This document shows positions 1 through 9,127 of a stretch of DNA of 46,778 nucleotides, piece by piece. Source of the DNA: a virus; the IMG/VR virus record IMGVR_UViG_3300045740_000150, positions 1-46,778 of that record. One strand, given 5' to 3'. The notes below the pieces were generated by a model that saw only the letters and a list, made by a program, of their open reading frames with translations, was not told where the DNA came from and did not search any database. The stretch's first letter is position 1. Each line of letters opens with the position of its first letter. Position numbers and translations under genes: made by a program.

Positions 1-636
1 TGCCTTGATTATCTGCCTCGCACAGATTATATCTTTCAAGGGGATTTTATTGGTTTTGGGGGTTCTGATACTTATCGTCCCAACACGATCACTTACCAGT
101 TCCCTGAGGTAGTCAATCAAGAGATCATTATTGCCCCGCATACGTTCTACGTTGCAGAGAATGATCTGAGGGATGCTGTTGCATATCCGATGAACTTTAT
201 CATCACTGATACTCCTTATGTGAAGTTTGTGTGCCCTAGAGCAGACATTTGCCCTCATCGTGAGGACATCGAAGACATCTGTAAGTTTGCCAAACAGATG
301 AGCACTTTGTGTGAGTTTGTGTCTGAACGCAAGGCAACAGAAATCAAAAAAGTCATCAATTCTTACATCCGTGAGGGTAAGGAGGTGGATGAGCATGAAA
401 TTGCAGAAAATTACGATGTTGACATCAACCTGCTGCGTTTGTGGAAGTTGGTGTACTCTATCAAGATGGATTTGTTCTTCTTCATTCGCACTGATAATAG
501 CATCCAGTGCTCCATCAACGGAGAGAAGTCTGACCATGAGGGTTATGTCATGACCAATAAGTTTGGCATGATGAAAGTTGTTGATCGTCATCAATTCTCT
601 CGTGCTAACTTCAACATGGTGCGGAATTGGGGGTAA
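1..636 (+). CDS. Ligase/nucleotidyltransferase-like phage protein, C-terminal part (5' end outside window)
   Basis: The reading frame is open from base 1 to a TAA at 634-636, so about 211 C-terminal residues are visible and the start lies upstream. The visible start has a segment QGDFIGFGG followed by TYRPNTITYQF and IIIAPHTFY. The end has HEGYVM about 10 residues before MKVVDRHQFS. From memory this spacing resembles phage proteins with an adenylation-type (DNA/RNA ligase-like) fold, where GE/GD, EG-V and K-V mark motifs III, IV and V. The lysine motif I would lie outside the window, so the assignment is tentative. The middle section is helical and charged. A promoter cassette begins 3 bases after the stop, so this gene probably ends its transcription unit. 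Confidence 0.6.
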   Translation, partial: CLDYLPRTDYIFQGDFIGFGGSDTYRPNTITYQFPEVVNQEIIIAPHTFYVAENDLRDAVAYPMNFIITDTPYVKFVCPRADICPHREDIEDICKFAKQMSTLCEFVSERKATEIKKVINSYIREGKEVDEHEIAENYDVDINLLRLWKLVYSIKMDLFFFIRTDNSIQCSINGEKSDHEGYVMTNKFGMMKVVDRHQFSRANFNMVRNWG

Positions 637-638
637 TT

Positions 639-673
639 AAAGTTACTCACCTCCAAAGTGTACCTATAGTATG
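639..673 (+). promoter_or_regulatory. Early-type promoter cassette, copy 1
   Basis: Starts with AAAGTTACTCACCTC and ends with GTGTACCTATAGTATG. The -35-like TTACTC is at 643-648 and the -10-like TATAGT at 665-670, with a 16-base spacer. The ATG of the next gene directly follows the -10. Near-identical copies lie at 2128, 3046, 3508, 4429 and 5696. Promoter function is inferred from hexamer similarity and position. Confidence 0.75.
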
Positions 674-910
674 AGCAACAACATCGTTTCCGAAGTCTAC
701 TCCTACCACACAAACTGGAAGGAAGGTAAAGTCAATCAAATGTGGATTGAGCAAATCACTGACAAAGAGTGCGATAATCTCTTTGTTGCTGTTGCACACA
801 ATCCTCGCAATGGTTCTACAATGGAGATGAGCAACCCTCGCACATCTTACTACGAAACTCTACAATGGGTTCGCAACTGGTGCGGCACTTTCTGTATTCT
901 TCCTGCCTGA
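671..910 (+). CDS. Small conserved-type phage protein, 79 aa, unknown function
   Basis: Not recognised. The ATG at 671 directly abuts the -10 element TATAGT of promoter copy 1, leaving no room for a ribosome binding site. If that promoter is used, the transcript would start at or after the ATG, so the true start could be Met24 (base 740). The protein is soluble and aromatic-rich, with a Trp-Cys pair near the end (WVRNWCGTF). It is followed after 10 bases by the next gene, suggesting co-transcription. No signal peptide or membrane segment is seen. Confidence 0.6.
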   Translation: MSNNIVSEVYSYHTNWKEGKVNQMWIEQITDKECDNLFVAVAHNPRNGSTMEMSNPRTSYYETLQWVRNWCGTFCILPA

Positions 911-920
911 TTGATTGAAA

Positions 921-1250
921 ATGATTACTACAACCGAACTTCTGGATTTTCTCTGTAAAGCACAGAAACTTTCTCCTTCTGGTGCAACCTTTCGTCAAAC
1001 TGATGAAGGTTATAAAATCACTCTGTATTGTGATTGGTGTGTTGATGGCGACTTCTACAATCAAACTGTGTTCATTGATAATGAAGGTGAATCCAGTTGG
1101 AATAATGGAGGAGACTATGATTTTTACACGATGGACAACATTCTAGATGAAATGCTTGTGAAACAACAAGAGAAAGAAATCAAGGCACAAAAGCGTAAAG
1201 AATTGATCGAAACTCTCACACCTGAACAACGAGAACTGCTAGGAGTTTGA
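921..1250 (+). CDS. Small phage protein, 109 aa, unknown function
   Basis: Not recognised. The ATG at 921 is preferred to the TTG at 915, which only adds two residues. The N-terminal two thirds are mixed alpha/beta, with an acidic aromatic stretch (DYDFYTMDN) around residues 64-72. The last 30 residues are a charged helix rich in Lys, Glu and Gln ending TPEQRELLGV, a typical coiled-coil-like tail. The spacing to the gene before is 10 bases and to the gene after 2 bases, so it belongs to the tightly packed run that starts at promoter copy 1. Confidence 0.65.
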   Translation: MITTTELLDFLCKAQKLSPSGATFRQTDEGYKITLYCDWCVDGDFYNQTVFIDNEGESSWNNGGDYDFYTMDNILDEMLVKQQEKEIKAQKRKELIETLTPEQRELLGV

Positions 1251-1252
1251 TT

Positions 1253-1414
1253 ATGAAAAACTATCGCATTCGAGTCGAAACTTATGATGGATGTGTTACC
1301 ATCTGGCATGAGAAATCAAAAGCAAAGACTGCTGATAAATTGATTCTCAACCGTGTCTACAACCAACTGTGTGGACTCAATGTAAAAGAAATCTCCGTCA
1401 CTCCTTCTGTTTGA
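1253..1414 (+). CDS. Micro-gene, 53 aa, unknown function
   Basis: ATG at 1253, two bases after the preceding stop, and TGA at 1412-1414. The product begins MKNYRIRVETYDG and ends KEISVTPSV. It looks like a compact beta-alpha-beta unit: an N-terminal strand pair, a lysine-rich helix, then a final strand. The preceding gene ends AGGAGTTTGA, so an AGGAG ribosome binding site sits about 7 bases before the ATG. Tight coupling on both sides and this site support a real gene despite its size. Confidence 0.65.
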   Translation: MKNYRIRVETYDGCVTIWHEKSKAKTADKLILNRVYNQLCGLNVKEISVTPSV

Positions 1415-1416
1415 TT

Positions 1417-1575
1417 ATGACTAACAAAACGCAACTTTTTGAGTTTCTGTATGAAACCTGCCAAAAGAATAATGGTGTCTTAGCAGATACTTTGCATAAC
1501 TACATTTCCTCCTTGGATGAGGTGGAACTTTGTGAACTTGAAGACTTCCTTGTAAACAATTTTGGAGACAACTGA
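1417..1575 (+). CDS. Micro-gene, 52 aa, unknown function
   Basis: ATG at 1417 is two bases after the TGA of the previous gene. An upstream in-frame start at 1369 would overlap that gene for 46 bases and is less likely. The product, from MTNKTQLFEFLYETC to EDFLVNNFGDN, is helical and acidic with no recognised motif. The next gene begins two bases after its stop. The recurring TGATTATG junctions at 1250, 1414 and 1575 suggest that translation of this run is coupled. Confidence 0.6.
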   Translation: MTNKTQLFEFLYETCQKNNGVLADTLHNYISSLDEVELCELEDFLVNNFGDN

Positions 1576-1577
1576 TT

Positions 1578-1985
1578 ATGGCAACTCGTTCCCGAATTGG
1601 TATTCAACTCTCTGATGATTCCATCCTCTCTGTGTATTGTCATTGGGATGGTTATCCTGAGTTTAATGGTGTGAAACTCATTGAACATTTCAACAGTTAT
1701 GATAAAGCATCAGAACTGATTGATGGTGGTGACATCTCTGCACTGTGGACAAATGTAGGATGGAACAATGAAACTCTAGAGAATCTTGGTCCTCTGTATT
1801 ATTCCTCTCGTGGTGAAGATCTTGCTCCTCGATTAGATTCTGATTTGTGTGAGTATCTGCTACCTGATGGTGCAGAAGAGTATCACTACCTCTTCACAAA
1901 TGGTGAATGGGTGTGCTACAATATGAATCAATTCGACAACAAACTCCCCCAAATCGTTCAAATCCCTGAAGGTGCAGTAGCATGA
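1578..1985 (+). CDS. MATRSRIGI-type phage protein, 135 aa
   Basis: Starts MATRSRIGIQ and continues with SVYCHWDGYPEFNGVKL, the hallmark of a small protein family that is widespread in tailed phages, including cyanophages, and has no established function. The family pattern is the N-terminal SRIGI, a YCHxDGYP segment (residues 20-27) and a GDIS segment (51-54), all present here. Length is in the usual range. The last four bases overlap the start of the next gene. The family identification is from memory of conserved motifs; the biochemical role is unknown. Confidence 0.75.
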   Translation: MATRSRIGIQLSDDSILSVYCHWDGYPEFNGVKLIEHFNSYDKASELIDGGDISALWTNVGWNNETLENLGPLYYSSRGEDLAPRLDSDLCEYLLPDGAEEYHYLFTNGEWVCYNMNQFDNKLPQIVQIPEGAVA

Positions 1986-2125
1986 AATGCGAAGTTAAAC
2001 TCTACATTGCGGGCAAAGTCTTTACGGAGACTGTAGAAGCACGAAACTATCAGGATGCTCGTGAGACTGCTCTCGCCCGCAATCCTACAGCAAAGGTGAT
2101 TGGAGTCAACGCAGTTTTCAAGTGA
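1982..2125 (+). CDS. Micro-gene, 47 aa, cyanophage-type small protein
   Basis: ATG at 1982 overlaps the upstream TGA (1983-1985), and the stop TGA is at 2123-2125. The product begins MKCEVKLYIAGKVF and contains NYQDARETALARNP, giving a strand-strand-helix-strand outline. Similar short peptides occur in marine T4-like phages as far as I recall, without known function. It closes the first gene run: promoter cassette copy 2 begins three bases after the stop. Confidence 0.65.
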   Translation: MKCEVKLYIAGKVFTETVEARNYQDARETALARNPTAKVIGVNAVFK

Positions 2126-2127
2126 TA

Positions 2128-2162
2128 AAAGTTACTCACCTCGAAAGTGTACCTATAGTATA
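2128..2162 (+). promoter_or_regulatory. Early-type promoter cassette, copy 2
   Basis: Same 35-base cassette: AAAGTTACTCACCTC, then GAAAGTG, then TACCTATAGTATA. TTACTC is at 2132-2137 and TATAGT at 2154-2159. Here the start codon of the next gene lies 17 bases after the -10, which would give a leader of only about 10 bases. Confidence 0.75.
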
Positions 2163-2176
2163 ACCACCTGATTCTG

Positions 2177-2404
2177 ATGACTGTCATCAACCAACCACGA
2201 ACAATTAACGGAACAGAGTATCAAACTCCAACCGTTGATGGTATGGATCGTGTTCAGATTAACAATCGTTTGCATTATATCAATGTGGAGATTGACAAAC
2301 TTCGTGCTACTCAAACTGCACTGATTGAGATGCGTAACCAACTCGATCGACATAATGAAATGTTAGAGATGGGTGATCTGTTTGACGAAATGTTCGGAGG
2401 TTGA
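2177..2404 (+). CDS. Small coiled-coil-like protein, 75 aa, unknown function
   Basis: Not recognised. ATG at 2177 is the first start after promoter copy 2; the 17 bases before it lack a purine-rich ribosome binding site. Residues 25-65 form a long amphipathic helix (heptad-like I/L spacing in INNRLHYINVEIDKLRATQ), suggesting an oligomeric coiled coil. The tail is acidic and Met-rich (MGDLFDEMFGG). It appears to be alone in its transcription unit, since a half copy of the promoter cassette follows at 2436. Confidence 0.6.
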   Translation: MTVINQPRTINGTEYQTPTVDGMDRVQINNRLHYINVEIDKLRATQTALIEMRNQLDRHNEMLEMGDLFDEMFGG

Positions 2405-2435
2405 TAGAATAGATCAATGGGAATGAGTTTGCCCC

Positions 2436-2467
2436 AAAGTTACTCACTATTCACTCGACACTAACGG
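2436..2467 (+). promoter_or_regulatory. Half copy of the promoter cassette
   Basis: AAAGTTACTCAC (2436-2447) matches the first 12 bases of the cassette exactly. The sequence then diverges: where TATAGT is expected there is TAACGG (2462-2467). The conserved left half alone suggests that it is a separately recognised box. An SD-like GGAG (2466-2469) precedes the ATG at 2481. Confidence 0.5.
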
Positions 2468-2480
2468 AGTTAGTTCAATT

Positions 2481-3038
2481 ATGACAATCGCAAATCTTAT
2501 CGATCACCTGGAAACTGGTGTAAATTGGAACAAAGTTTTCGGTGTAGTTTGTTCCACTTATGGTGACAAAGGTTTCACCTCTCGTGCAGACAACTTCACC
2601 AAGTCAACAACTATTGAAAAGGCACTTGCAAAGTTTTCTGATCTTAACCGCGTAGATCAGATTGGTTATGACTTCATGTATGGTGGTCTCAAAGTAGAAC
2701 TGAAGATGCGTCAGAATCTGTTCTACAAGAGAACACCACATCAGACGCAAGTGATCAAGATGAAGAACTTTCAAGGTAACAAAAAGACCCTGGAAGATTT
2801 CAAGAACGATCAAACATTTGATGTTGCAATCATTCTGTGTTTGACTACATTTCAGGTGATTGTTGTAGAAGATGATGTAGCACGAGATCGATACTTTGCA
2901 GATGGTGATGGAGTCTTTGCAAAGTTTGGTTTGGGAGACTACTACAAGTGTGACATTGGTGAAGTTAATCCCATAATTCCTCCGACTTCACTATCTGAAC
3001 AGATTCAGCAAGCAATCGACAATCACCTGAACTTTTGA
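2481..3038 (+). CDS. Possible PD-(D/E)XK-type nuclease, 185 aa
   Basis: No family is recognised with certainty. Residues 60-80 read QIGYDFMYGGLKVELKMRQN: an Asp (D64), nine residues, then E73-L-K75 on a strand. This is the D-Xn-(D/E)XK arrangement of restriction-endonuclease-like folds. A preceding helix carries E46, and residues 114-129 form two hydrophobic strands as expected for the fold's core sheet. K84, R85 and H88 could serve in binding. The gene has its own SD (GGAG, 11 bases before ATG) and sits behind the half promoter. A phage nuclease could act on host DNA or in phage DNA processing, but this is inference from one motif. Confidence 0.6.
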   Translation: MTIANLIDHLETGVNWNKVFGVVCSTYGDKGFTSRADNFTKSTTIEKALAKFSDLNRVDQIGYDFMYGGLKVELKMRQNLFYKRTPHQTQVIKMKNFQGNKKTLEDFKNDQTFDVAIILCLTTFQVIVVEDDVARDRYFADGDGVFAKFGLGDYYKCDIGEVNPIIPPTSLSEQIQQAIDNHLNF

Positions 3039-3045
3039 GTCCTTC

Positions 3046-3080
3046 AAAGTTACTCACCTCGAAAGTGTACCTATAGTATG
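3046..3080 (+). promoter_or_regulatory. Early-type promoter cassette, copy 3 (full)
   Basis: Full 35-base cassette, with TTACTC at 3050-3055 and TATAGT at 3072-3077. The ATG of the next gene is at 3078-3080, directly joined to the -10. It differs from copy 1 only by TCG versus TCC in the spacer. Confidence 0.75.
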
Positions 3081-3344
3081 ACCACTCCCGAAACCATGAT
3101 CGAGTTCCCCACACTGCAGTCTAAAGATGGTACAATGATCGTCGGTTTCTATCCTATCACTGATGCACCGAATCATGTTCTCAAGGTTCTATCTTGGAAA
3201 GGTGTTGATACCATCTCTCGCAAGTGCATCTGGAAAAGTGATGTAACTCGTGAAGTGAATGAGCGTCTGTCACTGGGATACTTTATCACTGGTGATAACA
3301 TCGGTTCTGAGCAAGATTGGAATCCTATGTGGGGTGCGTGCTGA
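3078..3344 (+). CDS. Small phage protein, 88 aa, unknown function
   Basis: Not recognised. The ATG at 3078 is fused to the -10 of the promoter cassette, so the start may instead be Met7 (3096) or Met20. The product looks globular and beta-rich, with central segment VLKVLSWKGVDTISRKCIW. It ends in NPMWGAC, and the last base of its stop codon is the first base of the next ATG, so the two genes are translationally coupled. Confidence 0.6.
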   Translation: MTTPETMIEFPTLQSKDGTMIVGFYPITDAPNHVLKVLSWKGVDTISRKCIWKSDVTREVNERLSLGYFITGDNIGSEQDWNPMWGAC

Positions 3345-3505
3345 TGAAACATTCTAACACTGTTCGCATTATTGACAAACTCGGATTGTTTCCTGAGACA
3401 AGAGGAAAAGCCCGTTATCTTACAGTCAAGACATACAATCATGCGATGGAAATTGTAGACGAACAAAACAAACTTGGTAACATAGCAACACTGATTAACT
3501 GGTAA
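3344..3505 (+). CDS. Micro-gene, 53 aa, unknown function
   Basis: ATG at 3344 forms a TGATG overlap with the previous stop. A longer in-frame start upstream would run 27 bases into that gene and is not favoured. The product MKHSNTVRIIDKLGLFP is basic and probably a helix-rich fold. It contains RYLTVKTYNHAMEIVDEQN. No family is recognised. Promoter cassette copy 4 follows after two bases. Confidence 0.55.
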   Translation: MKHSNTVRIIDKLGLFPETRGKARYLTVKTYNHAMEIVDEQNKLGNIATLINW

Positions 3506-3507
3506 TT

Positions 3508-3542
3508 AAAGTTACTCACCTCGAAAGTGTACCTATAGTATG
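3508..3542 (+). promoter_or_regulatory. Early-type promoter cassette, copy 4
   Basis: Full cassette, with TTACTC at 3512-3517 and TATAGT at 3534-3539. The next ATG is at 3540-3542, again directly abutting the -10. Confidence 0.75.
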
Positions 3543-3719
3543 ACACACACAAATCCTTATGTTCAGAACCTGATTGAGATGGGTTATGATCAACAAGATG
3601 TAAAAGTTGCTTCTACGATGTTTCAAAAGCACACATTCCCATGTAATATTCATGGTCGGTATTTTGAGACTGAAGAACAATACTTTTCAGAACTTCATGA
3701 TTACTTCAACGGATTGTAA
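3540..3719 (+). CDS. Micro-gene, 59 aa, unknown function
   Basis: ATG at 3540 abuts TATAGT of promoter copy 4, and TAA is at 3717-3719. The product begins MTHTNPYVQNLIEMGYDQQD and ends SELHDYFNGL. A single Cys lies in FPCNIHGRYFETEEQYF. The pattern (helix, then a short Cys/His-containing loop, then a helix) suggests a small compact domain, but there is no second Cys for a zinc site. Met14 (3579) is an alternative start if the transcript begins downstream of the ATG. The gene ends one base before the next. Confidence 0.6.
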   Translation: MTHTNPYVQNLIEMGYDQQDVKVASTMFQKHTFPCNIHGRYFETEEQYFSELHDYFNGL

Positions 3720-3720
3720 G

Positions 3721-3915
3721 ATGAATTACTACAAGATCACTGACATCGAGTTTGATTTTGACTATGAAGATCTGACAGATGATGAACAAAATGAAATCAT
3801 TCAAGAGACAGTCTCATGTCTGTGGACTTCACCAACTGAAGATGATCTAGCAGATACCATCACCAATAACACTGGATGGTGTATCAAATCCCTCTCTTAT
3901 GACATCGTACAATGA
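3721..3915 (+). CDS. Small acidic protein, 64 aa, unknown function
   Basis: ATG at 3721 lies one base after the preceding TAA. A longer in-frame start at 3607 would overlap the previous gene by over 100 bases. The product MNYYKITDIEFDFDYEDL is strongly acidic (FDFDYEDLTDDEQNE), a composition seen in DNA-mimic or inhibitor proteins, though no function can be claimed. Its stop overlaps the next start in an ATGA junction. Confidence 0.6.
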   Translation: MNYYKITDIEFDFDYEDLTDDEQNEIIQETVSCLWTSPTEDDLADTITNNTGWCIKSLSYDIVQ

Positions 3916-4061
3916 TTGAAATCCTGCTTGCATCTACCATCATCGGAGCAACTGAAATCGCCCCCAATGTTCTCCAAATTGACTACCTTACTCCGACGAA
4001 TCAGATTGTCACTATTCTCGAAAATGTTGAACTCACAGGAGGAGAAATTGACCGTGATTGA
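3912..4061 (+). CDS. Micro-gene, 49 aa, unknown function
   Basis: ATG 3912-3914 overlaps the upstream TGA, and the stop is TGA 4059-4061. The product starts MIEILLASTIIGATEIAP and continues NVLQIDYLTP. The hydrophobic start could be a short signal or simply a buried helix; no cleavage site is clear. The 3' end overlaps the next gene by eight bases and contains that gene's ribosome binding site. No family is recognised. Confidence 0.6.
   Translation: MIEILLASTIIGATEIAPNVLQIDYLTPTNQIVTILENVELTGGEIDRD
4037..4043 (+). promoter_or_regulatory. Strong Shine-Dalgarno site that decides a GTG start
   Basis: AGGAGGA is the best ribosome binding site in the left block. It ends 10 bases before the GTG at 4054 and selects that codon over an in-frame upstream start that has no such site. 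Confidence 0.7.
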
Positions 4062-4197
4062 AACTCAATTCTTTATACTGACTGCAGAACAATACCAAGA
4101 ACATCTACACGATGCAGAAAAACTGAATGTCACTCTAGACTATTATTTGTCTGAGTTCTGCGAAGTCCAAGGTCCTCTAATCACTCTCGAAAAATGA
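4054..4197 (+). CDS. Micro-gene with GTG start, 47 aa
   Basis: GTG at 4054 is chosen because of the AGGAGGA 10 bases upstream and because an earlier start would overlap the previous gene heavily. The product, (M)IETQFFILTAEQYQEHL to QGPLITLEK, is a small helical protein with an acidic face. The gene overlaps the previous one by eight bases and the next by four (ATGA). No family is recognised. It is one of two GTG starts inferred in the window. Confidence 0.6.
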   Translation: MIETQFFILTAEQYQEHLHDAEKLNVTLDYYLSEFCEVQGPLITLEK

Positions 4198-4430
4198 TTC
4201 TCTACACTCCCGAAGATCACGGTTGTGCCTATACTATTGACACTGAGGGCACATTATACTACATTCCCATTCACTCTAATGGTATTCTCAACTTCGGTGA
4301 ATTATGCGAGGTTGATTATGAAGAACTGCGAGATGGTGGTTATGAAGATGAAGTCCAAGAGGTTCATCAAAAGTTAATTCAAATGATGAAATCTGTGGGC
4401 GAATACTACATCCAAGCAGCAGTCAATTAA
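4194..4430 (+). CDS. Small acidic protein, 78 aa, unknown function
   Basis: ATG 4194 overlaps the TGA of the previous gene. The product begins MILYTPEDHGCAYTID and looks like a beta-rich N-terminal half (TLYYIPIHSNG) followed by an acidic helix (EVDYEELRDGGYEDEVQEV). No family is recognised. The TAA overlaps the first two bases of promoter cassette copy 5, ending the run that began at copy 4. Confidence 0.65.
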   Translation: MILYTPEDHGCAYTIDTEGTLYYIPIHSNGILNFGELCEVDYEELRDGGYEDEVQEVHQKLIQMMKSVGEYYIQAAVN

Positions 4431-4463
4431 AGTTACTCACCTCCAAAGTGTACCTATAGTATA
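4429..4463 (+). promoter_or_regulatory. Early-type promoter cassette, copy 5
   Basis: Full cassette, with TTACTC at 4433-4438 and TATAGT at 4455-4460. The next ATG is 19 bases beyond the -10. Its first bases overlap the stop codon of the gene before it. Confidence 0.75.
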
Positions 4464-4479
4464 GGACTCATTACCACTC

Positions 4480-4806
4480 ATGCGAAAGATCGAAAAGCAA
4501 ATGAACGATGCCATCTCCAACCTGAAAGATGGTGAACAGTGGAAAAATGCTAACACTGTTGTTCGCAATCTTGGTGATGTTACTGAGGTTCTGCTTCATG
4601 GTAACAAGATTGCTGAACTTGGTGACTTTCACATCACTTTGTTCGATGGTGGTTGGCAATCAAACACTACCAAAAGCAGATTAAACGCACTTCTCCGTGC
4701 TCATGGTATTGGTAACGAATGTGTATTCCAAAAGAACTATGTTTGGAACTTCCGTATGTCTGATGGAACTACAATTCCCTTCTTCTCAGGTATGCGTCTG
4801 AACTGA
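4480..4806 (+). CDS. Conserved small phage protein, 108 aa
   Basis: Begins MRKIEKQMNDAISNLKDG and contains WKNANTVV, EVLLHGNKIAEL and GGWQSNTTKSRLNALL. This combination is found in small proteins of many unrelated tailed phages, from memory, and is of unknown function. The mix of strands around HGNKIA and a TTKSRLNALL helix suggests a compact nucleic-acid or protein-binding fold. ATG is 19 bases past the -10 of promoter copy 5, with AGGA as a weak ribosome binding site. Its stop overlaps the next ATG. Confidence 0.7.
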   Translation: MRKIEKQMNDAISNLKDGEQWKNANTVVRNLGDVTEVLLHGNKIAELGDFHITLFDGGWQSNTTKSRLNALLRAHGIGNECVFQKNYVWNFRMSDGTTIPFFSGMRLN

Positions 4807-4970
4807 TGAAAGTTATCACTGTTGCCCTATTGTCTGTTATCTTCTTTGCTTCATGTGTTGTAGGTCTGAAAACAATTAACCCAAAGATCGAAGCACAGTG
4901 TATAGCAAAAGGAGGACAAGTCTTAGCAACTCCTGGTAAGTTTAGTTCCTGTCTTTACTCCGCAAAGTAA
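4806..4970 (+). CDS. Small secreted protein, probable lipoprotein, 54 aa
   Basis: ATG 4806 is in a TGATG overlap, and TAA is at 4968-4970. Residues 1-17 are MKVITVALLSVIFFASC: one Lys, a hydrophobic core, then FASC, which fits a lipobox ending in Cys17. The mature part would have only about 37 residues with two further Cys (33 and 50) that could form a disulfide. An envelope location is therefore likely. Small phage lipoproteins can act in lysis or superinfection exclusion; nothing here decides between these. The next gene, also membranous, follows with no gap. Confidence 0.65.
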   Translation: MKVITVALLSVIFFASCVVGLKTINPKIEAQCIAKGGQVLATPGKFSSCLYSAK

Positions 4971-5096
4971 ATGTCTAAGTTCCTGATTGGCGTCGTTGTT
5001 GGTATTGTACTCTCTACAGTAGGGTTCAACGGAATTGCATCTTTAGGCAATCGAGCTATCAACGGGATCGAAACATTCGCAACTCAGAATCAATGA
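4971..5096 (+). CDS. Single-span membrane micro-protein, 41 aa
   Basis: ATG follows directly after the previous TAA, and TGA is at 5094-5096. Residues 4-25 (FLIGVVVGIVLSTVGFNG) form one hydrophobic span with a GxxxG-like small-residue pattern, and the remainder is a short polar tail. The peptide resembles tiny membrane proteins of cyanomyoviruses from memory. It is paired with the lipoprotein gene just upstream and followed at once by a terminator, so the two probably form the end of one operon and may act together at the envelope. Confidence 0.65.
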   Translation: MSKFLIGVVVGIVLSTVGFNGIASLGNRAINGIETFATQNQ

Positions 5097-5124
5097 AGAG
5101 ACCCCATCTAAGGGGTCTTTTTTT
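5096..5124 (+). terminator. Rho-independent terminator
   Basis: Stem AGACCCC (5099-5105) pairs with GGGGTCT (5112-5118) around a six-base loop and is followed by a run of T through 5124. It sits directly after the stop of the 41-aa membrane gene and ends the longest gene run of the left block. Confidence 0.85.
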
Positions 5125-5208
5125 ATGTCTAAAAACACAATATAACGATAAAAGTATATTAAAATGTATTATAAATGTGTTTTTAAATATACTTTAGTTG
5201 TTTAAATC

Positions 5209-5238
5209 ATTCTCAATAAGTGATGTTTTATTGAGAAT
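5209..5238. repeat. Perfect 11-bp inverted repeat
   Basis: ATTCTCAATAA (5209-5219) and its exact complement TTATTGAGAAT (5228-5238) are separated by eight bases. A third partial arm, GTTGAGAA, lies at 5253-5260. There is no T-run, so it is not a standard terminator. Confidence 0.7.
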
Positions 5239-5242
5239 CAAT

Positions 5243-5269
5243 AGGGTCTATTGTTGAGAATAAGACCCT
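5243..5269. repeat. 7-bp inverted repeat
   Basis: AGGGTCT (5243-5249) pairs with AGACCCT (5263-5269) across a 13-base loop that contains the sequence TTGAGAAT of the preceding hairpin. The AGACCC core also occurs in the terminator at 5099. Confidence 0.5.
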
Positions 5270-5281
5270 TATATACCCATT

Positions 5282-5334
5282 TAAATGTGCTCAGGTCTTG
5301 CAACTTATGTCCTTATAAATGTGCTCAGGTCTTG
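5282..5334. repeat. 19-base direct repeat, two copies
   Basis: TAAATGTGCTCAGGTCTTG occurs at 5282-5300 and again exactly at 5316-5334, a period of 34 bases. It may be an iterated binding site. Confidence 0.8.
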
Positions 5335-5452
5335 TGATCTTTGCCTGCATTCTACCACAACCGCAGAGAAATGTCAAGACCCCCGAGTATCATAAAACCC
5401 CCACACATCTCCCCAAAACCATAAGGACTCCAAATAAATACCCACACCCCCA

Positions 5453-5481
5453 TTGACATTGACTCGGAGAAGTCTTATAGT
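5453..5481 (+). promoter_or_regulatory. Consensus sigma70-type promoter
   Basis: TTGACA (5453-5458), a 17-base spacer, then TATAGT (5476-5481). Transcription would begin near 5488, leaving about 20 bases of leader with a GGAG (5498-5501) before the ATG at 5509. The -10 context TATAGTAT is the same as in the 35-base cassettes, but here the -35 is perfect and the start codon is at a normal distance. Confidence 0.85.
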
Positions 5482-5508
5482 ATTCCCATACACATTCGGA
5501 GAACACTT

Positions 5509-5682
5509 ATGTCAGTTGCATACAGTCAGGCGCAAAAGGTCCGTTATCGTGTAACCCTGGATCTTGAGGTTTTCGCAGACTTCGACCCGCATCAAATGGA
5601 CTGGGACAAACTCTTTAAGTTAGAACCTGCTGAGAAGTGTTCTGCGTATGTTGAGGACCTGAGCACACCCGATTCCTGGTGA
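5509..5682 (+). CDS. Small cyanophage-type protein, 57 aa
   Basis: ATG 5509 follows GGAG with seven bases between, and TGA is at 5680-5682. The product is MSVAYSQAQKVRYRVTLDLE to AYVEDLSTPDSW. It has a strand-rich N-terminus (KVRYRVTLDLEVF) and an acidic end. I recall close relatives as hypothetical proteins in marine cyanophages; the function is unknown. It is the only gene behind the strong promoter at 5453 before another cassette promoter at 5696, so it is probably expressed early and strongly. Confidence 0.7.
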   Translation: MSVAYSQAQKVRYRVTLDLEVFADFDPHQMDWDKLFKLEPAEKCSAYVEDLSTPDSW

Positions 5683-5695
5683 TTCTCAGGGTCTC

Positions 5696-5730
5696 AAAGT
5701 TACTCACCTTGAAAGTGTACCTATAGTGTA
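5696..5730 (+). promoter_or_regulatory. Early-type promoter cassette, copy 6
   Basis: Full cassette with two changes (CTTG in the spacer and GTGTAAGG after the -10). TTACTC is at 5700-5705 and TATAGT at 5722-5727. The ATG lies 17 bases beyond the -10, with AAGGA between. Confidence 0.75.
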
Positions 5731-5744
5731 AGGACACACCACTG

Positions 5745-5975
5745 ATGACCACCACTCTCGAAACTACCTACAACGGTTATGCTAACTACGAGACCTGGAA
5801 CGTTGCTCTATGGATTCAGAATGATGAGGGTCTTTATAACCTTGCTCTGCAGTGTGATGATTACCAAGAGTTCGTAAAAGAGATCGGTGTTGGATACTCT
5901 ACTCCTGATGGTGTTAAGTATGCATCTCCGAAACTTGACATCGAAGAACTCAACGAAGTCATCGCAGATCTCTAA
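5745..5975 (+). CDS. NYETWNVALWI-type small protein, 76 aa
   Basis: Residues 10-29 read NGYANYETWNVALWIQNDEG, the signature of a small protein family found in many phages and cyanobacterial genomes, with no assigned function. Here the motif is complete and the length (76) is typical. The C-terminal half is acidic and helical (LDIEELNEVIADL). ATG 5745 follows promoter copy 6 with a weak AAGGA site about 10 bases before. Family membership is a recollection of the conserved motif. Confidence 0.75.
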   Translation: MTTTLETTYNGYANYETWNVALWIQNDEGLYNLALQCDDYQEFVKEIGVGYSTPDGVKYASPKLDIEELNEVIADL

Positions 5976-6029
5976 GGACCTTATACCTTAAGTCCTGGGC
6001 AAGACTATAAACTACCTACGTTCCAAGAA

Positions 6030-6045
6030 CTAGGACCGATCCTAG
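6030..6045. repeat. Small inverted repeat CTAGGA/TCCTAG
   Basis: CTAGGA (6030-6035), loop CCGA, TCCTAG (6040-6045). It lies in the 133-base gap between two small genes. There is no T-run. It could be an operator or an RNA hairpin in the leader of the next gene. Confidence 0.45.
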
Positions 6046-6108
6046 AATGAGAGGACTAGGGACACTCTCACCAAACACACACAGTTCACAACACTTTTCT
6101 TCGTTATT

Positions 6109-6249
6109 ATGTCTAAGTCCGTGATGCTTTCTCTGCTGGCTCAAGGTAACAACGGCAATGAGATTCTGCAGATCCTCGATACTCTTATCGAAGGCAATCA
6201 GAGTGACGTTGCTTATGCTCAACCGACCGCAGATGTGATCGAGTTCTGA
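6109..6249 (+). CDS. Small cyanophage-type protein, 46 aa
   Basis: ATG 6109 and TGA 6247-6249. The product MSKSVMLSLLAQGNNGNEIL, ending TADVIEF, contains a SLLAQGN-G-EIL-ILD pattern that I associate with short hypothetical proteins of marine cyanomyoviruses. It is helical and acidic with no membrane span. No good SD precedes the ATG (CTTCGTTATT), so translation initiation may rely on an A/U-rich leader. Confidence 0.65.
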   Translation: MSKSVMLSLLAQGNNGNEILQILDTLIEGNQSDVAYAQPTADVIEF

Positions 6250-6259
6250 TACTAACTGT

Positions 6260-6287
6260 GTGCCCCTTGGTTGACACTGGGGGGCAC
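6260..6287. repeat. 7-bp inverted repeat enclosing a promoter -35
   Basis: GTGCCCC (6260-6266) pairs with GGGGCAC (6281-6287). The loop contains TTGACA (6271-6276). No T-run follows, so it is a weak terminator candidate. Confidence 0.5.
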
Positions 6288-6299
6288 TTATGTTAGACT
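6271..6299 (+). promoter_or_regulatory. Possible sigma70-type promoter
   Basis: TTGACA (6271-6276), a 17-base spacer and TAGACT (6294-6299; four of six consensus bases). It points toward the micro-genes at 6459 and 6523 across a 160-base leader that includes a run of nine G (6363-6371) and two hairpins. Confidence 0.5.
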
Positions 6300-6401
6300 C
6301 TTATTCGTTATGCGTATTGGCAGTTCTTAGGGTGTTGCGGTTATGTGCCCTGCGGGCGTTACGGGGGGGGGTATATAAGAATCTGGGTCCTTGTAACCTA
6401 C

Positions 6402-6427
6402 AGAGGTGACAATTCGACCTCTAAATA
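6402..6427 (+). promoter_or_regulatory. Late promoter core TCTAAATA joined to a 6-bp hairpin
   Basis: AGAGGT (6402-6407) pairs with ACCTCT (6417-6422). The right arm runs into TCTAAATA (6420-6427), which fits the cyanophage late promoter core. It lies 32 bases before the ATG at 6459. Confidence 0.5.
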
Positions 6428-6458
6428 TCAATCTAATAAAAAATTCCCGGAGTAAAAA

Positions 6459-6539
6459 ATGGGTGTCAAATGGATTCATTCAAACGGATATTCGAGACCT
6501 GATAAGAGGACTTTAAAGAAAGGTGGCAAGAAGAAATAA
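6459..6539 (+). CDS. Basic micro-peptide, 26 aa
   Basis: ATG 6459, six bases after GGAG (6449-6452), and TAA 6537-6539. The product MGVKWIHSNGYSRPDKRTLK ends in GGKKK: strongly basic, compatible with RNA or DNA binding or a ribosome-associated role. The good SD and the promoter core 32 bases upstream support translation, but the length makes the call uncertain. Its last 17 bases overlap the next gene in another frame, so the two are probably coupled. It resembles the basic 46-aa product at 8183 in composition only. Confidence 0.5.
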   Translation: MGVKWIHSNGYSRPDKRTLKKGGKKK

Positions 6540-6669
6540 GAGACCCTATTGGAACTTCTGGAAGGTTGTCTTTGCGGGTTGGTTAATAAGGTATCCACGG
6601 CAGTGCTTTACGATCTTCGGAGGCACTGTCGGTTTTTTGTTTGTGTTGATATATAATGCTGTGAGATAA
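6523..6669 (+). CDS. Membrane micro-protein with GTG start, 48 aa
   Basis: GTG 6523 lies 12 bases after AGAGGA (6505-6510); the frame ends at TAA 6667-6669. The product reads (M)ARRNKRPYWNFWKVVFAG, then WLIRYPRQCFTIF, then GGTVGFLFVLIYNAVR. A basic aromatic head is followed by one hydrophobic span (about residues 28-45), a layout unlikely by chance. The positive-inside rule would place the N-terminus in the cytoplasm. It overlaps the previous micro-gene by 17 bases. A terminator-like hairpin lies inside the coding part for the membrane span. No family is assigned; the protein-like pattern is my main evidence. Confidence 0.6.
   Translation: MARRNKRPYWNFWKVVFAGWLIRYPRQCFTIFGGTVGFLFVLIYNAVR
6598..6638 (+). 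terminator. Terminator-like hairpin inside a coding frame
   Basis: CGGCAGTGC (6598-6606) pairs with GCACTGTCG (6623-6631) with one G-U, and six T follow at 6633-6638. It lies within the 48-aa membrane gene, so it may act as an attenuator or cut off read-through before the cupin gene. Confidence 0.6.
6652..6657 (+). promoter_or_regulatory. Possible -10 element TATAAT for the cupin gene
   Basis: A perfect TATAAT placed 33 bases before ATG 6691 and just after the hairpin/T-run. No convincing -35 is seen at 16-18 bases upstream (TCGGTT region), so an activator would be needed. Confidence 0.35.
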
Positions 6670-6690
6670 AAAAATCCCGGAAAAAATTTT

Positions 6691-7029
6691 ATGACCACAG
6701 AGTTGCGCCCATGGGGGTTATTTGAGAACTTATTAGAGGAGATTGATTATAAGGTAAAGAGAATTATTATTTCACCAAATCAATCAATATCTCTCCAATA
6801 TCATTTCCATAGGGAAGAGTATTGGATAGTTGTTGAGGGTGATGGAGAATTAACTCATGAGGATACTGTAAGGACCGTAGAGGTGGGTGATAGTGTTTTT
6901 ATTGGTAAGGAGGAGGTTCATCGTCTTAAAGCAGGTAAGAACGGCATTACAGTCATCGAGACACAGATAGGAATATGTGAGGAGGATGATATTATAAGGT
7001 TAGAGGATCATTATGGGAGAGTAGAGTAA
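6691..7029 (+). CDS. Cupin, mannose-6-phosphate isomerase type II-like, 112 aa
   Basis: Matches the C-terminal cupin of bifunctional mannose-phosphate isomerase/GDP-mannose pyrophosphorylase: RPWG (6-9), YKVKRIIISP (20-29), then SLQYHFHREEYWIVVEG (34-50), a GDSVFIG turn (66-72), H77 and the closing EDHYGR (105-110). Metal ligands would be Q36, H38, H40 or E43 and H77. The product is a single cupin without the transferase domain, as often seen in phages. It could isomerise a sugar phosphate or bind a sugar nucleotide. The next gene overlaps its stop, and a glycosyltransferase lies 240 bases downstream, which fits saccharide modification. Confidence 0.85.
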   Translation: MTTELRPWGLFENLLEEIDYKVKRIIISPNQSISLQYHFHREEYWIVVEGDGELTHEDTVRTVEVGDSVFIGKEEVHRLKAGKNGITVIETQIGICEEDDIIRLEDHYGRVE

Positions 7030-7220
7030 TGGAAAAGATTTATCACATTTATGCAAAGGACCGTTGTTTATTTCATTCAATTCGAGAGGATGAGTTTGAG
7101 GTAACTTGGAAGACCTTAAAGAATATGGTAGGTTTGATGCATACGGATTATGAAGTTTCTGATTTATCTTATGAGGAACTTATGGTGAACCGGAAAGTCT
7201 CGTTGGATAGTTCCTATTGA
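7029..7220 (+). CDS. Small cyanophage-type protein, 63 aa
   Basis: ATG 7029 shares its first base with the last base of the cupin stop (TAATG). The product begins MEKIYHIYAKDRCLFHSI, and has EVTWKTLKNMVGLM, DLSYEEL and a final DSSY. This pattern is familiar to me from hypothetical proteins of T4-like cyanophages; the function is unknown. It is acidic with a strand-strand-helix start. The TGA is embedded in the TTGACA of the next promoter, and the glycosyltransferase starts 50 bases downstream. Confidence 0.7.
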   Translation: MEKIYHIYAKDRCLFHSIREDEFEVTWKTLKNMVGLMHTDYEVSDLSYEELMVNRKVSLDSSY

Positions 7221-7246
7221 CAAGAGCATATATAGACTGTTAAAAT
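7217..7246 (+). promoter_or_regulatory. Sigma70-type promoter before the glycosyltransferase
   Basis: TTGACA (7217-7222), an 18-base spacer and TAAAAT (7241-7246). The -35 contains the stop codon of the preceding gene (7218-7220). The ATG at 7270 follows 23 bases after the -10, with GAAGG at 7253-7257. Confidence 0.6.
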
Positions 7247-7269
7247 TGATCTGAAGGTTATTTTTTCTT

Positions 7270-8037
7270 ATGGCAAAAGGATTTACTTTGAAGGCTAATG
7301 CACCGAAACCCAAGGAAGCAGAGTGGGATTACGATGCGATTAAGGAACGAATGAAGGGCAAATCGATTGTCTTTTGTCTTCCTGGTCGTGGGTGCTCATT
7401 TACATTTCTGAAGGCATTTGTACAACTTTGTTTTGATCTGGTGCAAAACAACATGAGTATTCAGATCTCTCAAGACTACTCATCGATGGTTAACTTTGCT
7501 CGTTGTAAAGTACTTGGAGCAAATGTTCTGCGTGGTCCCAAGCAGATTCCTTGGGATGGTAAACTGACTTACGATTATCAACTGTGGATTGATAGTGATA
7601 TTGTATTCAATACTGAAAAGTTCTGGCAACTGTGTGATCTTGCACTGTCTGAAGATGGTGAAGAGAAAGAGATTGTAGCAGGATGGTATGCAACTGAGGA
7701 TGGTCATACGACTTCTGTTGCTCACTGGTTGGAAGAAGATGACTTCCGTAAGAATGGTGGAGTCATGAATCATGAGAACGTAGAAGGTATTTCAAAGCGT
7801 CGTAAACCCTTTACTGTTGATTATACTGGTTTTGGTTGGGTTCTGATTAAGAAGGGTGTATTTGAGAATCTTGAGTATCCCTGGTTTGCTCCTAAGATGC
7901 AAGTCTTTGAATCTGGTGCAGTTCAAGATATGTGTGGTGAAGATGTTTCATTCTGTCTTGATGCGAAAGAAGCAGGATTTGATATCTGGTGTGATCCTCG
8001 TATTCGTGTAGGACATGAAAAAACTCGTGTAATCTAA
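7270..8037 (+). CDS. GT-A-fold glycosyltransferase, 255 aa
   Basis: Residues 30-60 (GKSIVFCLPGRGCSFTFLKA) form the sugar-nucleotide-binding start of a GT-A fold. LWIDSDIVF carries the D-x-D motif at 108-110 that binds the metal and nucleotide sugar. Later come DYTGFGWVLIKK (184-195), the catalytic-site-like GEDVSFC (223-229) and a terminal GH(249)E. This order is typical of small phage and cyanophage glycosyltransferases. The acceptor (phage DNA base, virion protein or host surface glycan) cannot be read from the sequence. It has its own promoter and is followed by two tightly overlapping small genes. Confidence 0.8.
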   Translation: MAKGFTLKANAPKPKEAEWDYDAIKERMKGKSIVFCLPGRGCSFTFLKAFVQLCFDLVQNNMSIQISQDYSSMVNFARCKVLGANVLRGPKQIPWDGKLTYDYQLWIDSDIVFNTEKFWQLCDLALSEDGEEKEIVAGWYATEDGHTTSVAHWLEEDDFRKNGGVMNHENVEGISKRRKPFTVDYTGFGWVLIKKGVFENLEYPWFAPKMQVFESGAVQDMCGEDVSFCLDAKEAGFDIWCDPRIRVGHEKTRVI

Positions 8038-8183
8038 TGGCATTTAATATCTTATACAAAGGACGTAAGATATATCAGGATCTCAGTTATGAAGAATGCA
8101 CTGAGATCCTTGACGAACTTTCCTCTAAGTATTATACTGAAGAGGACTTTGATATTGAACAACTCGAACTGGAGGAAATCTAA
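8037..8183 (+). CDS. Micro-gene, 48 aa, acidic
   Basis: ATG 8037 shares a base with the glycosyltransferase stop (TAATG), and its own TAA shares a base with the next ATG at 8183. The product MAFNILYKGRKIYQDLSYEE ends in EQLELEEI. A strand pair followed by an acidic helix (ILDELSSKYYTEEDF) can be seen. No family is recognised. The double one-base overlaps strongly suggest a translationally coupled trio with the glycosyltransferase. Confidence 0.65.
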   Translation: MAFNILYKGRKIYQDLSYEECTEILDELSSKYYTEEDFDIEQLELEEI

Positions 8184-8323
8184 TGGCTAAAGGTGGATCA
8201 AACAAAACTATTTTTGAACCAGGAGCACCAAAGAAGACACGTCAAGGACGTTCTGCCCGGACCCTGCTCTCACCAACGTCTCGTAACGGTAGAAAGAAAA
8301 GGTATCGGGGACAAGGAAAATAA
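8183..8323 (+). CDS. Basic small protein, 46 aa
   Basis: ATG 8183 and TAA 8321-8323. The product MAKGGSNKTIFEPGAPKKTR is followed by QGRSARTLLSPTSRNGRKKR and ends YRGQGK. It is highly basic, Gly/Ser/Arg-rich and probably disordered when free, resembling ribosomal-protein-like or nucleic-acid-binding tails. A GGAGGAA (8171-8177) lies just before the ATG as SD. I recall similar peptides in cyanomyoviruses. A terminator follows eight bases after the stop. Confidence 0.65.
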   Translation: MAKGGSNKTIFEPGAPKKTRQGRSARTLLSPTSRNGRKKRYRGQGK

Positions 8324-8330
8324 TTTATAG

Positions 8331-8364
8331 AGGGTGCTTAAATAGTAATAAGCACTCTTTTTTT
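8331..8364 (+). terminator. Rho-independent terminator with late-promoter-like loop
   Basis: AGGGTGCTTA (8331-8340) pairs with TAAGCACTCT (8349-8358) with one G-T wobble, and T residues follow to 8364. The loop side contains CTTAAATA (8337-8344), similar to a late promoter core. The next ATG is at 8365, immediately after the T-run. Confidence 0.8.
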
Positions 8365-8892
8365 ATGTTTACTGAAAAAGAACTTTATATCCTTAATTGG
8401 ATAAAAGAAGTATCAAAAGTGAGAGAAGAACTGAATGGATTTGCGATTTGTCCATTTGCATCTCATTCAAAATATAAGATTGTGGAGTGCCCTGCTGAGG
8501 AAATTGTACCAATTGAAGGTTATCAGGTTATAATATACATCGTAGAAGACTACTTTGACTTAGATGCTGTTCAATTTTGGGTTAATTTTCATAACTCAAA
8601 GCACCCTGGATGGAAATTTTTTGAAGACTGTGGTTCATATGACACCTATATTAAGGGTATAAAGACAAATAACGGCAAATATAACTTAATTTTAGTTCAA
8701 CCAACCGATAAGTTGCGAAAATTTAGAGAAAATCTTGCTAGAACCACATACTATGACATGTGGGACGATGATTATTTGCAAGAAATACTCGAAAATGACT
8801 ATGATATTCTTGAAAAACGGGATAGCAACCCCGTAAAAAGTTCTGATTTAACAGATCAGGAGAGCAAAAATGGGGAAACCAGCAGATCGTGA
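8365..8892 (+). CDS. Unrecognised phage protein, 175 aa
   Basis: ATG 8365 follows directly on the terminator T-run, with no SD and no other Met before residue 132, so initiation must be unusual (leaderless or U-rich leader) or the start is a non-ATG codon. The N-terminal 40 residues include LNGFAICPFASHSKY, a motif that recurs in cyanophage hypothetical proteins as far as I recall. The Cys and the aromatic residues suggest a compact alpha/beta domain to about residue 120. An acidic stretch (MWDDDYLQEILENDYD) and a polar, probably disordered tail follow. It overlaps the next gene by 23 bases. Confidence 0.65.
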   Translation: MFTEKELYILNWIKEVSKVREELNGFAICPFASHSKYKIVECPAEEIVPIEGYQVIIYIVEDYFDLDAVQFWVNFHNSKHPGWKFFEDCGSYDTYIKGIKTNNGKYNLILVQPTDKLRKFRENLARTTYYDMWDDDYLQEILENDYDILEKRDSNPVKSSDLTDQESKNGETSRS

Positions 8893-9127
8893 CAAAAATT
8901 ACATGTATGAACTGTGGGGAACCACGCATTTAACCTCAGATTATGGTGTTCTTGACAATATTCAAGAGAAAAAAATGCTGAGAGAGATCAGTAATGATGA
9001 TTTAACTCCAAAAAAACATGATTTTTTCCATCAAAATGAAATTCATCAAAAAATTCGTAATGATGAGGACTATGATGACTGGGAATATGGCACTGAACCT
9101 CTTTATGAATTCAAAAAACCCGAATAA
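8870..9127 (+). CDS. Small acidic protein, 85 aa, unknown function
   Basis: ATG 8870 has an SD (AGGAGAG at 8858-8864) inside the end of the previous gene. The product MGKPADRDKNYMYELWGTTH is charged and aromatic, with EDYDDWEYGTEPLYEF near the end, and is probably flexible. No family is recognised. Its TAA (9125-9127) lies within the late promoter AATAAATA that precedes gene 25, so it marks the border between the accessory block and the late module. Confidence 0.6.
   Translation: MGKPADRDKNYMYELWGTTHLTSDYGVLDNIQEKKMLREISNDDLTPKKHDFFHQNEIHQKIRNDEDYDDWEYGTEPLYEFKKPE

Follow-up and report, generated by a model that had tools for sequence, protein, structure and literature searches.

The early region of a T4-like cyanophage fragment, IMG/VR record IMGVR_UViG_3300045740_000150 (here called the window: the whole stretch of 46,778 nucleotides (nt) that was analysed, a 46.8-kb virus fragment starting inside the T4-GC71 gene), carries six near-identical promoter-like elements at its gene junctions. 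In our best explanation, to which we give a probability of roughly two in three, these elements are early promoters with two modules, a conserved core and a genome-specific 12-nt box at the place of the -35 hexamer, and a sequence-specific factor that is made late, packaged in the head and injected would direct host RNA polymerase to the phage's own early promoters. The proposed sequence of events is as described below. The core, AAAGTGTNCC-TATAGT-RTRAG, would be read by the transcription machinery. The factor would be made late in infection, targeted into the head by a leader like that of the T4 internal proteins (IPs), and injected with the DNA into the next host. There, its C-terminal helical domain would bind the phage's own box, and the bound factor would recruit or stabilise host RNA polymerase at promoters that have no -35. 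Many transcripts would start at or within a few bases of an ATG fused to the -10, yielding near-leaderless mRNAs.

A shared core and a genome-specific box

A scan of related cyanophages for the motif, which the earlier note on this DNA had proposed, was run on IMG/VR and gave 549 de-duplicated copies beyond the window. The -10 hexamer TATAGT was present in almost all copies, the search itself having required TANNNT at this place. The copy counts are de-duplicated but not phylogenetically independent, and the guards against this are the within-protein split and the out-of-sample test described below. The right half of the element, AAAGTGTNCC-TATAGT-RTRAGCAC, was common to many phages, and the left half was a 12-nt box that was the same in all copies of one contig and different between contigs. 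The boxes fell into 21 classes more than 2 mismatches apart, and up to 30 different boxes were found ahead of one and the same gene family. Within a genome, the box held ca. 1.6-1.97 bits of information per base, and across genomes 0.1-1.0 bits at all but one position. The earlier description of the element as conserved across all 35 bases was thus correct within one genome but not across phages, where the left 12-14 nt varied and the right half was constant. The element types of S-SM2, SynMITS9220M01 and P-TIM68 were AAAGGGGGGTCGCC, TGTTACTCACC and GTTAGTTACC, respectively, and the boxes of S-SM2 and SynMITS9220M01 were GGGGGGTCG and TGTTACTCACC.

In complete or long genomes, nearly all elements lay on one strand in the early region. 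Box occurrences fell inside elements in 10/10, 11/12 and 14/14 cases, and in 6/6 cases in the window, so that the box is almost confined to the elements. A sigma70 -35 (TTGACA at 16-18 bp spacing) was absent: a match of at least 4/6 was seen in 1% of the elements versus 13% of the shuffled sequences. Palindromes in the box were weak (p = 0.0125). An RNA hairpin between box and core was seen by eye only in the GGGGGGACG type and was rejected as not general. These comparisons establish the modular structure of the element and the homogeneity of its box within each genome.

Syn9 (L231), Bellamy (L024), DSL-LC02 (L029) and S-SKS1 (L027) carry a long repeated element of another kind, likewise promoter-like, with the approximate sequence TCGTGTATTNTATAAGAGTCAAAGG and an end that resembles a Shine-Dalgarno sequence. 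It is preceded by CAGTTGxxxGGTGGCACA or CAGTT..AACTGTCCACTAAA, and its left part seems to be lineage-specific as well.

A protein whose C-terminus covaries with the box

A reader of the box was sought by correlating protein distances with box distances for the protein families near the elements. The strongest large family diverging with the box was a basic protein of ca. 200 residues beginning MKTFxxF (r = 0.42, n = 49; leader MKTFxxFxxEA), whose gene is found a short way upstream of uvsW in the early region; isolate copies are SynMITS9220M01_053 and SSM2_065. This candidate factor was missed both by subtracting the protein sets of Syn9 and Bellamy from those of element-positive phages and by Pfam and PHROGs searches on 110 SynMITS9220M01 proteins.

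Among 57 distinct proteins, the distances of the C-terminal 62 residues correlated with those of the box at r = 0.62 (p = 0.0005), and those of the N-terminal part at r = 0.19. The partial correlation with the box was 0.60 for the C-terminus given the N-terminus and 0.05 for the N-terminus given the C-terminus. Arg two residues before a conserved Glu was paired with C at box position -3 in 28 cases and with G in none (first set); Lys was further paired with GG, Asp with C and Asn with GAT. These residue-base pairs are chemically sensible. Tail residues followed mainly the left half-box, and several helix residues followed the right half. At the level of motifs, RDKIR/RDRAR went with TCACCT, RMxQQR with TAACCT, RNKQTR with GATCGT and RKALYK with GGACGT.

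Since collecting contigs by their elements biases the sample, an out-of-sample set was collected by protein and not by DNA (491 relatives among 600 candidates, of which the best 80 were kept). For 41 new proteins, the nearest C-terminus predicted the adjoining box with 1.7 mismatches out of 12, while the nearest N-terminus gave 5.8 and a random choice 6.2. In L354, L397 and L398, the N-terminus resembled one class and the C-terminus a different one, and the box was that of the C-terminus. Three further records found by tblastn fitted the same pairing: S-B05 has ERDAAR and the box ATTACTCACCTC, AG-345-O18 has ERKALTKK and the box GGGGGGTCG, and P-TIM68, with the protein AVU42_gp045, has ERMSVVR with a QETDKY tail and 11 copies of GTTAGTTACCTC or close variants in front of a different core, AAATTGAnnTATTAATG. 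The box can therefore be uncoupled from the core, and it goes with the protein. P-TIM68 is a Prochlorococcus phage (L399, 11070-18124) with the same box class and a core ending TATTAATG; several of its copies read ATGTAA (start-stop), and AAGGA Shine-Dalgarno sequences occur in some leaders.

Shared ancestry could produce covariation if box and protein, being close neighbours, were passed on as one unit, and an element was indeed found within 120 nt downstream of 45 of the 57 factor genes. We consider this very improbable since the N-terminal half shows no correlation of its own with the box when the C-terminus is controlled for, the mixed-class proteins have the box of their C-terminus, and copies 10-15 kb away carry the same box. 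The covariation of C-terminus and box, with its out-of-sample prediction, is a property of the sequences themselves. Together with the missing -35 and the genome-specific box, it gives strong support to the guess in the earlier note that the long conservation reflects an extra protein contact.

Start codons fused to the -10 hexamer

The earlier note had pointed to copies in which an ATG directly follows TATAGT, as is the case for elements 1, 3 and 4 of the window. The puzzle proved to be real. Among the 549 copies, the triplet after TATAGT was ATG in 257, GTA in 166, ATA in 72 and GTG in 7. The fused ATG (ATG1) was in frame with the gene in 240/253 cases versus 96/215 for the ATA/GTA triplets (Fisher's test, 6e-36, uncorrected for relatedness), and the switch between in-frame and out-of-frame was also visible inside single gene families; therefore, ribosomes must see ATG1. 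GTG was rare although G was frequent at each of the two positions, which would fit avoidance of an out-of-frame start codon. Out-of-frame ATG1 mini-reading frames ending at the ATGA of the gene (5/13; control 27/122) were rejected and not counted.

A second in-frame ATG (ATG2) was found at offset 12-30 (mode 15) in ca. 60% of the ATG1 copies, which is where the genes of ATG-less copies start, while 94 of the 240 in-frame ATG1 copies had no other in-frame ATG within 30 nt. The T4-GC71 family carried ATG1 in 47/47 copies, several of which join the native start MKNTHLEHPED straight to TATAGT; the T4-GC71 of Bellamy, which has no element, has the same N-terminus. In L038 and L186, ATG1-only T4-GC71 elements directly follow the U-run of a terminator, leaving no room for another promoter. 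The 94 copies without ATG2, together with these terminators, imply that at least some genes use ATG1, and the ATG1-only copies behind terminators favour 5' ends at or just before ATG1. It is thus likely, and we lean to this view, that in many genes the mRNAs are near-leaderless, with a transcription start near ATG1 and a 5' end at or within a few bases of it. Between the leaderless mRNAs and internal Met starts that the earlier note had offered as alternatives, the former are favoured where ATG1 is the sole start, and the latter may hold for the ca. 60% with ATG2.

Some of these features would also be expected if the elements were ordinary promoters of the host sigma70 type whose transcripts begin 7 nt after TATAGT, with ATG1 serving read-through mRNAs and ATG2 the promoter's own mRNA. 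TATAGT is acceptable as a -10, A stands at offset +7 in 77% of copies, usually after a pyrimidine, ATG2 at offset 15 matches the start of ATG-less copies, and the genes stand in co-directional arrays. We nevertheless regard this explanation as unlikely: there is no -35, the 94 copies without ATG2 do not fit, and the box and its covariation are left unexplained. Moreover, ATG1 was not rarer behind terminators (it was carried by 22/27 elements that had one within 250 nt versus 42% of the others), and the ATG1-only T4-GC71 copies of L038 and L186 come immediately after terminator U-runs.

If a single-subunit RNA polymerase of the T7/SP6 type read the core and initiated at the G of TATAG, a leader of 2 nt would precede ATG1 and the near-invariance of that G would be accounted for; AGTGTCCCTATAG resembles the SP6 sequence GGTGACACTATAG at 10/13 positions by eye. 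This reading is hardly credible given that a T7 plus SP6 hidden Markov model found no such polymerase in SynMITS9220M01 or S-SM2 (control: the Syn5 polymerase at 2e-86), the box is too far upstream, and P-TIM68 has a different core. A PF00940 search, for which no positive control gave a signal, was also negative.

A late-type promoter and a probable head-targeting leader

The leader of the candidate factor (MKTFSQFMAEA/MKSFQQFIAEA) matches the T4 IPII/IPIII leader MKTYQEFIAEA, and MKTFSQFMAEA or variants of it were present in 25/25 aligned proteins. T4 IPI, IPII and IPIII likewise have this short N-terminal capsid-targeting leader and are packaged and injected with the DNA (PMC3012670, PMC9026906); in T4, 10 residues from the start of the leader are enough for packaging (PMC9026906), and injection is documented for IPI (PMC3012670). 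A late-type motif, NHTAAATA, was found within 90 nt upstream of 48/50 factor genes, as compared to 4/548 element-driven genes and 182/2279 of all open reading frames; the strict late motif HATAAATA preceded 12/50 factor genes, and an early element only 1/50. The prohead protease family Peptidase_S77 was found in SynMITS9220M01. With late-type expression amid early genes, a head-targeting leader and a domain specific for early promoters, the protein has the features that an injected early activator should have. Its packaging, binding and activation are predicted from these features, and its injection also from the analogy with T4. Other MKTF-leader proteins in the same regions, e.g. MKTFSQLTEDIAKRRLELRQRQL... 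(L123:2450-2960, L030:5737-6094 and L135:1217-1406), are possibly also packaged.

Several observations weigh against an injected activator. Covariation is evidence of specificity and not of activation, and a late repressor of early genes would give the same pattern. The C-terminal domain had no Pfam, PHROG or PDB match, and the AlphaFold2 (AF2) models contained a confident long helix (L196) or two helices (L204) at a predicted template modelling score (pTM) of 0.43-0.52, with no significant Foldseek match. The window's own factor gene is not visible since the record starts inside T4-GC71 and the gene lies upstream, outside the window; the same-box contig L009, with its factor at 483-1136, served as a proxy for the window box GTTACTCACCTC, and the C-terminus of the window phage's own protein is predicted to contain a TRxERD(K/R)xR helix. 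In addition, offsets 3-7 (AGCAC) were moderately conserved in non-ATG copies, which fits an ordinary start 7 nt after TATAGT.

The main mechanistic rival is that the same protein is a late-acting repressor, which would bind the box and shut the early promoters, with packaging either incidental or blocking superinfecting relatives. The late-type promoter agrees with this, a box over the -35/spacer region would suit an operator, and genome-specific boxes recall phage immunity systems. On the other hand, a capsid-targeting leader would be counter-productive on a repressor of the phage's own first genes, and promoters without a -35 look in need of help and not of repression. We therefore judge repression decidedly improbable and prefer the injected activator.

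Elements in the window

All six near-identical copies of the earlier note were recovered on the plus strand at exactly the positions it had given (Table 1). They occupy a hypervariable stretch of small genes, with uvsW/T4-GC71 on one side and the gp25 baseplate gene on the other. The length of 35 bases given earlier needs qualification: 32 nt, AAAGTTACTCACCT[C/T]NAAAGTGTACCTATAGT, are invariant, and the remaining three bases are the next triplet, which varies. The 15-mer arm (up to 3 mismatches) was seen 9 times versus 2.2 expected per shuffle, with 0/100 shuffles reaching 9, and the 32-mer read backwards as a control gave 0 matches. The decayed seventh copy has an intact counterpart in contig L009 near 6057; its position between intact copies, with the core deleted, shows that elements decay when not kept.

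Table 1 Promoter elements and neighbouring features of the window
Feature	Position	Strand	Parts	Triplet after TATAGT	Gene and remarks
T4-GC71 gene, 3' part	1..636	+			KxDG nucleotidyltransferase-like; 5' end upstream, outside the window
Element 1	639..670	+	AAA 639-641; box GTTACTCACCTC 642-653; core AAAGTGTACC 655-664; TATAGT 665-670	ATG 671-673 (fused ATG1)	Gene 671-910; MSNNIVSEVYSYHTNW; no nearby second ATG
Element 2	2128..2159	+	box 2131-2142; core 2144-2153; TATAGT 2154-2159	ATA 2160	Gene ATG 2177
Decayed seventh copy	2436..2450	+	AAAGTTACTCAC kept; core and TATAGT lost
Element 3	3046..3077	+	box 3049-3060; core 3062-3071; TATAGT 3072-3077	ATG 3078-3080 (fused ATG1)	Gene 3078-3344; in-frame ATG2 at 3096
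Element 4	3508..3539	+	box 3511-3522; core 3524-3533; TATAGT 3534-3539	ATG 3540-3542 (fused ATG1)	Gene 3540-3719; MTHTNPYVQNLIEMGYD
Element 5	4429..4460	+	box 4432-4443; core 4445-4454; TATAGT 4455-4460	ATA 4461	Gene ATG 4480
Intrinsic-terminator-like hairpin and T run	5096..5125	+	GACCCCATCTAAGGGGTCTTTTTTT		Between elements 5 and 6; read from sequence
Element 6	5696..5727	+	box GTTACTCACCTT 5699-5710; core 5712-5721; TATAGT 5722-5727	GTA 5728	Gene ATG 5745

The closest annotated relatives of the window phage were SynMITS9220M01, S-SM2 and Bellamy. Between elements 5 and 6, an AT-rich gap of ca. 350 nt (5096-5460) holds the terminator and a repeated aaatgtgctcaggtcttg motif, and S-CAM9 (L026, 5994-6082) carries a similar repeat, aaagtgctcagggtcttg. 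No RNA families were found in positions 1-9000 of the window. A 4001-residue baseplate/virion protein with a YHYH domain is encoded at 11468-23473; the giant open reading frames of the window were considered as a virion RNA polymerase and rejected as baseplate and fibre proteins.

Discussion

Published accounts liken early transcription in cyanomyoviruses to that of host sigma70 and regard its mechanism as unclear, the genes motA, asiA, alt and mod being described as lacking (PMC2984593, PMC5780444). In T4, the head protein Alt modifies host RNA polymerase to favour early promoters, and middle promoters have no -35 and carry a short box near -30 that is read by the phage activator MotA together with the -10 (PMC5780444). 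The cyanophage elements resemble MotA promoters in combining a short upstream box and a -10 without a -35; they differ in that the box varies between lineages and the candidate reader has a late-type promoter and a capsid leader. Cyanomyoviruses are without motA and asiA (PMC2984593), and neither MotA nor AsiA was among the 25/50 families listed for the 110 SynMITS9220M01 proteins, no MotA/AsiA-specific profile having been run. The function described for the T4 IPs is anti-restriction, and for Alt it is ADP-ribosylation, whereas the C-terminus of the cyanophage candidate covaries with a promoter box. The cyanophage system would thus work like MotA promoters with Alt-like delivery; we claim membership in neither system. 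We know of no T4 internal protein or Alt that reads promoter sequence.

Among more distant systems, VP16 of herpes simplex virus is carried in the virion and activates immediate-early genes through a cis motif. The likeness is functional only, as the proteins are unrelated and VP16 depends largely on host DNA-binding partners; to our knowledge, no genome-by-genome box code exists for it. The virion RNA polymerases of N4 and jumbo phages are likewise injected early-transcription machinery, but they are polymerases, and the search of SynMITS9220M01 and S-SM2 yielded no gene for a single-subunit polymerase. Mycobacteriophage stoperators are many identical sites per genome that differ between immunity groups. 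Unlike the cyanophage elements, which are confined to early promoters of T4-like phages, stoperators are scattered and bound by the repressor of a temperate phage. On balance, we lean slightly towards classing the cyanophage system as a virion transactivator of a lytic phage in the full sense, i.e. a packed and injected factor with a two-part C-terminal domain and a simple, fast-evolving residue-to-base code, which would serve promoters of its own lineage and not those of a competitor, with start codons fused to the -10 and (near-)leaderless mRNAs.

T4-like cyanophages are among the most abundant viruses in the sea, and their way of initiating transcription in the absence of Alt, ModA and MotA has been termed unclear (PMC2984593). 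If the explanation is true, a packaged promoter-specific factor answers this question for one large group of cyanophages. It would be the first of its kind, as we know of no other phage that injects a sequence-specific transcription factor. With more than 490 relatives, the family is a natural data set for a protein-DNA recognition code, and from the box even a short contig could reveal the factor to which its early genes belong. Phage-specific boxes might underlie private gene expression when phages share a cell, each of them perhaps supplying the key to its own first genes.

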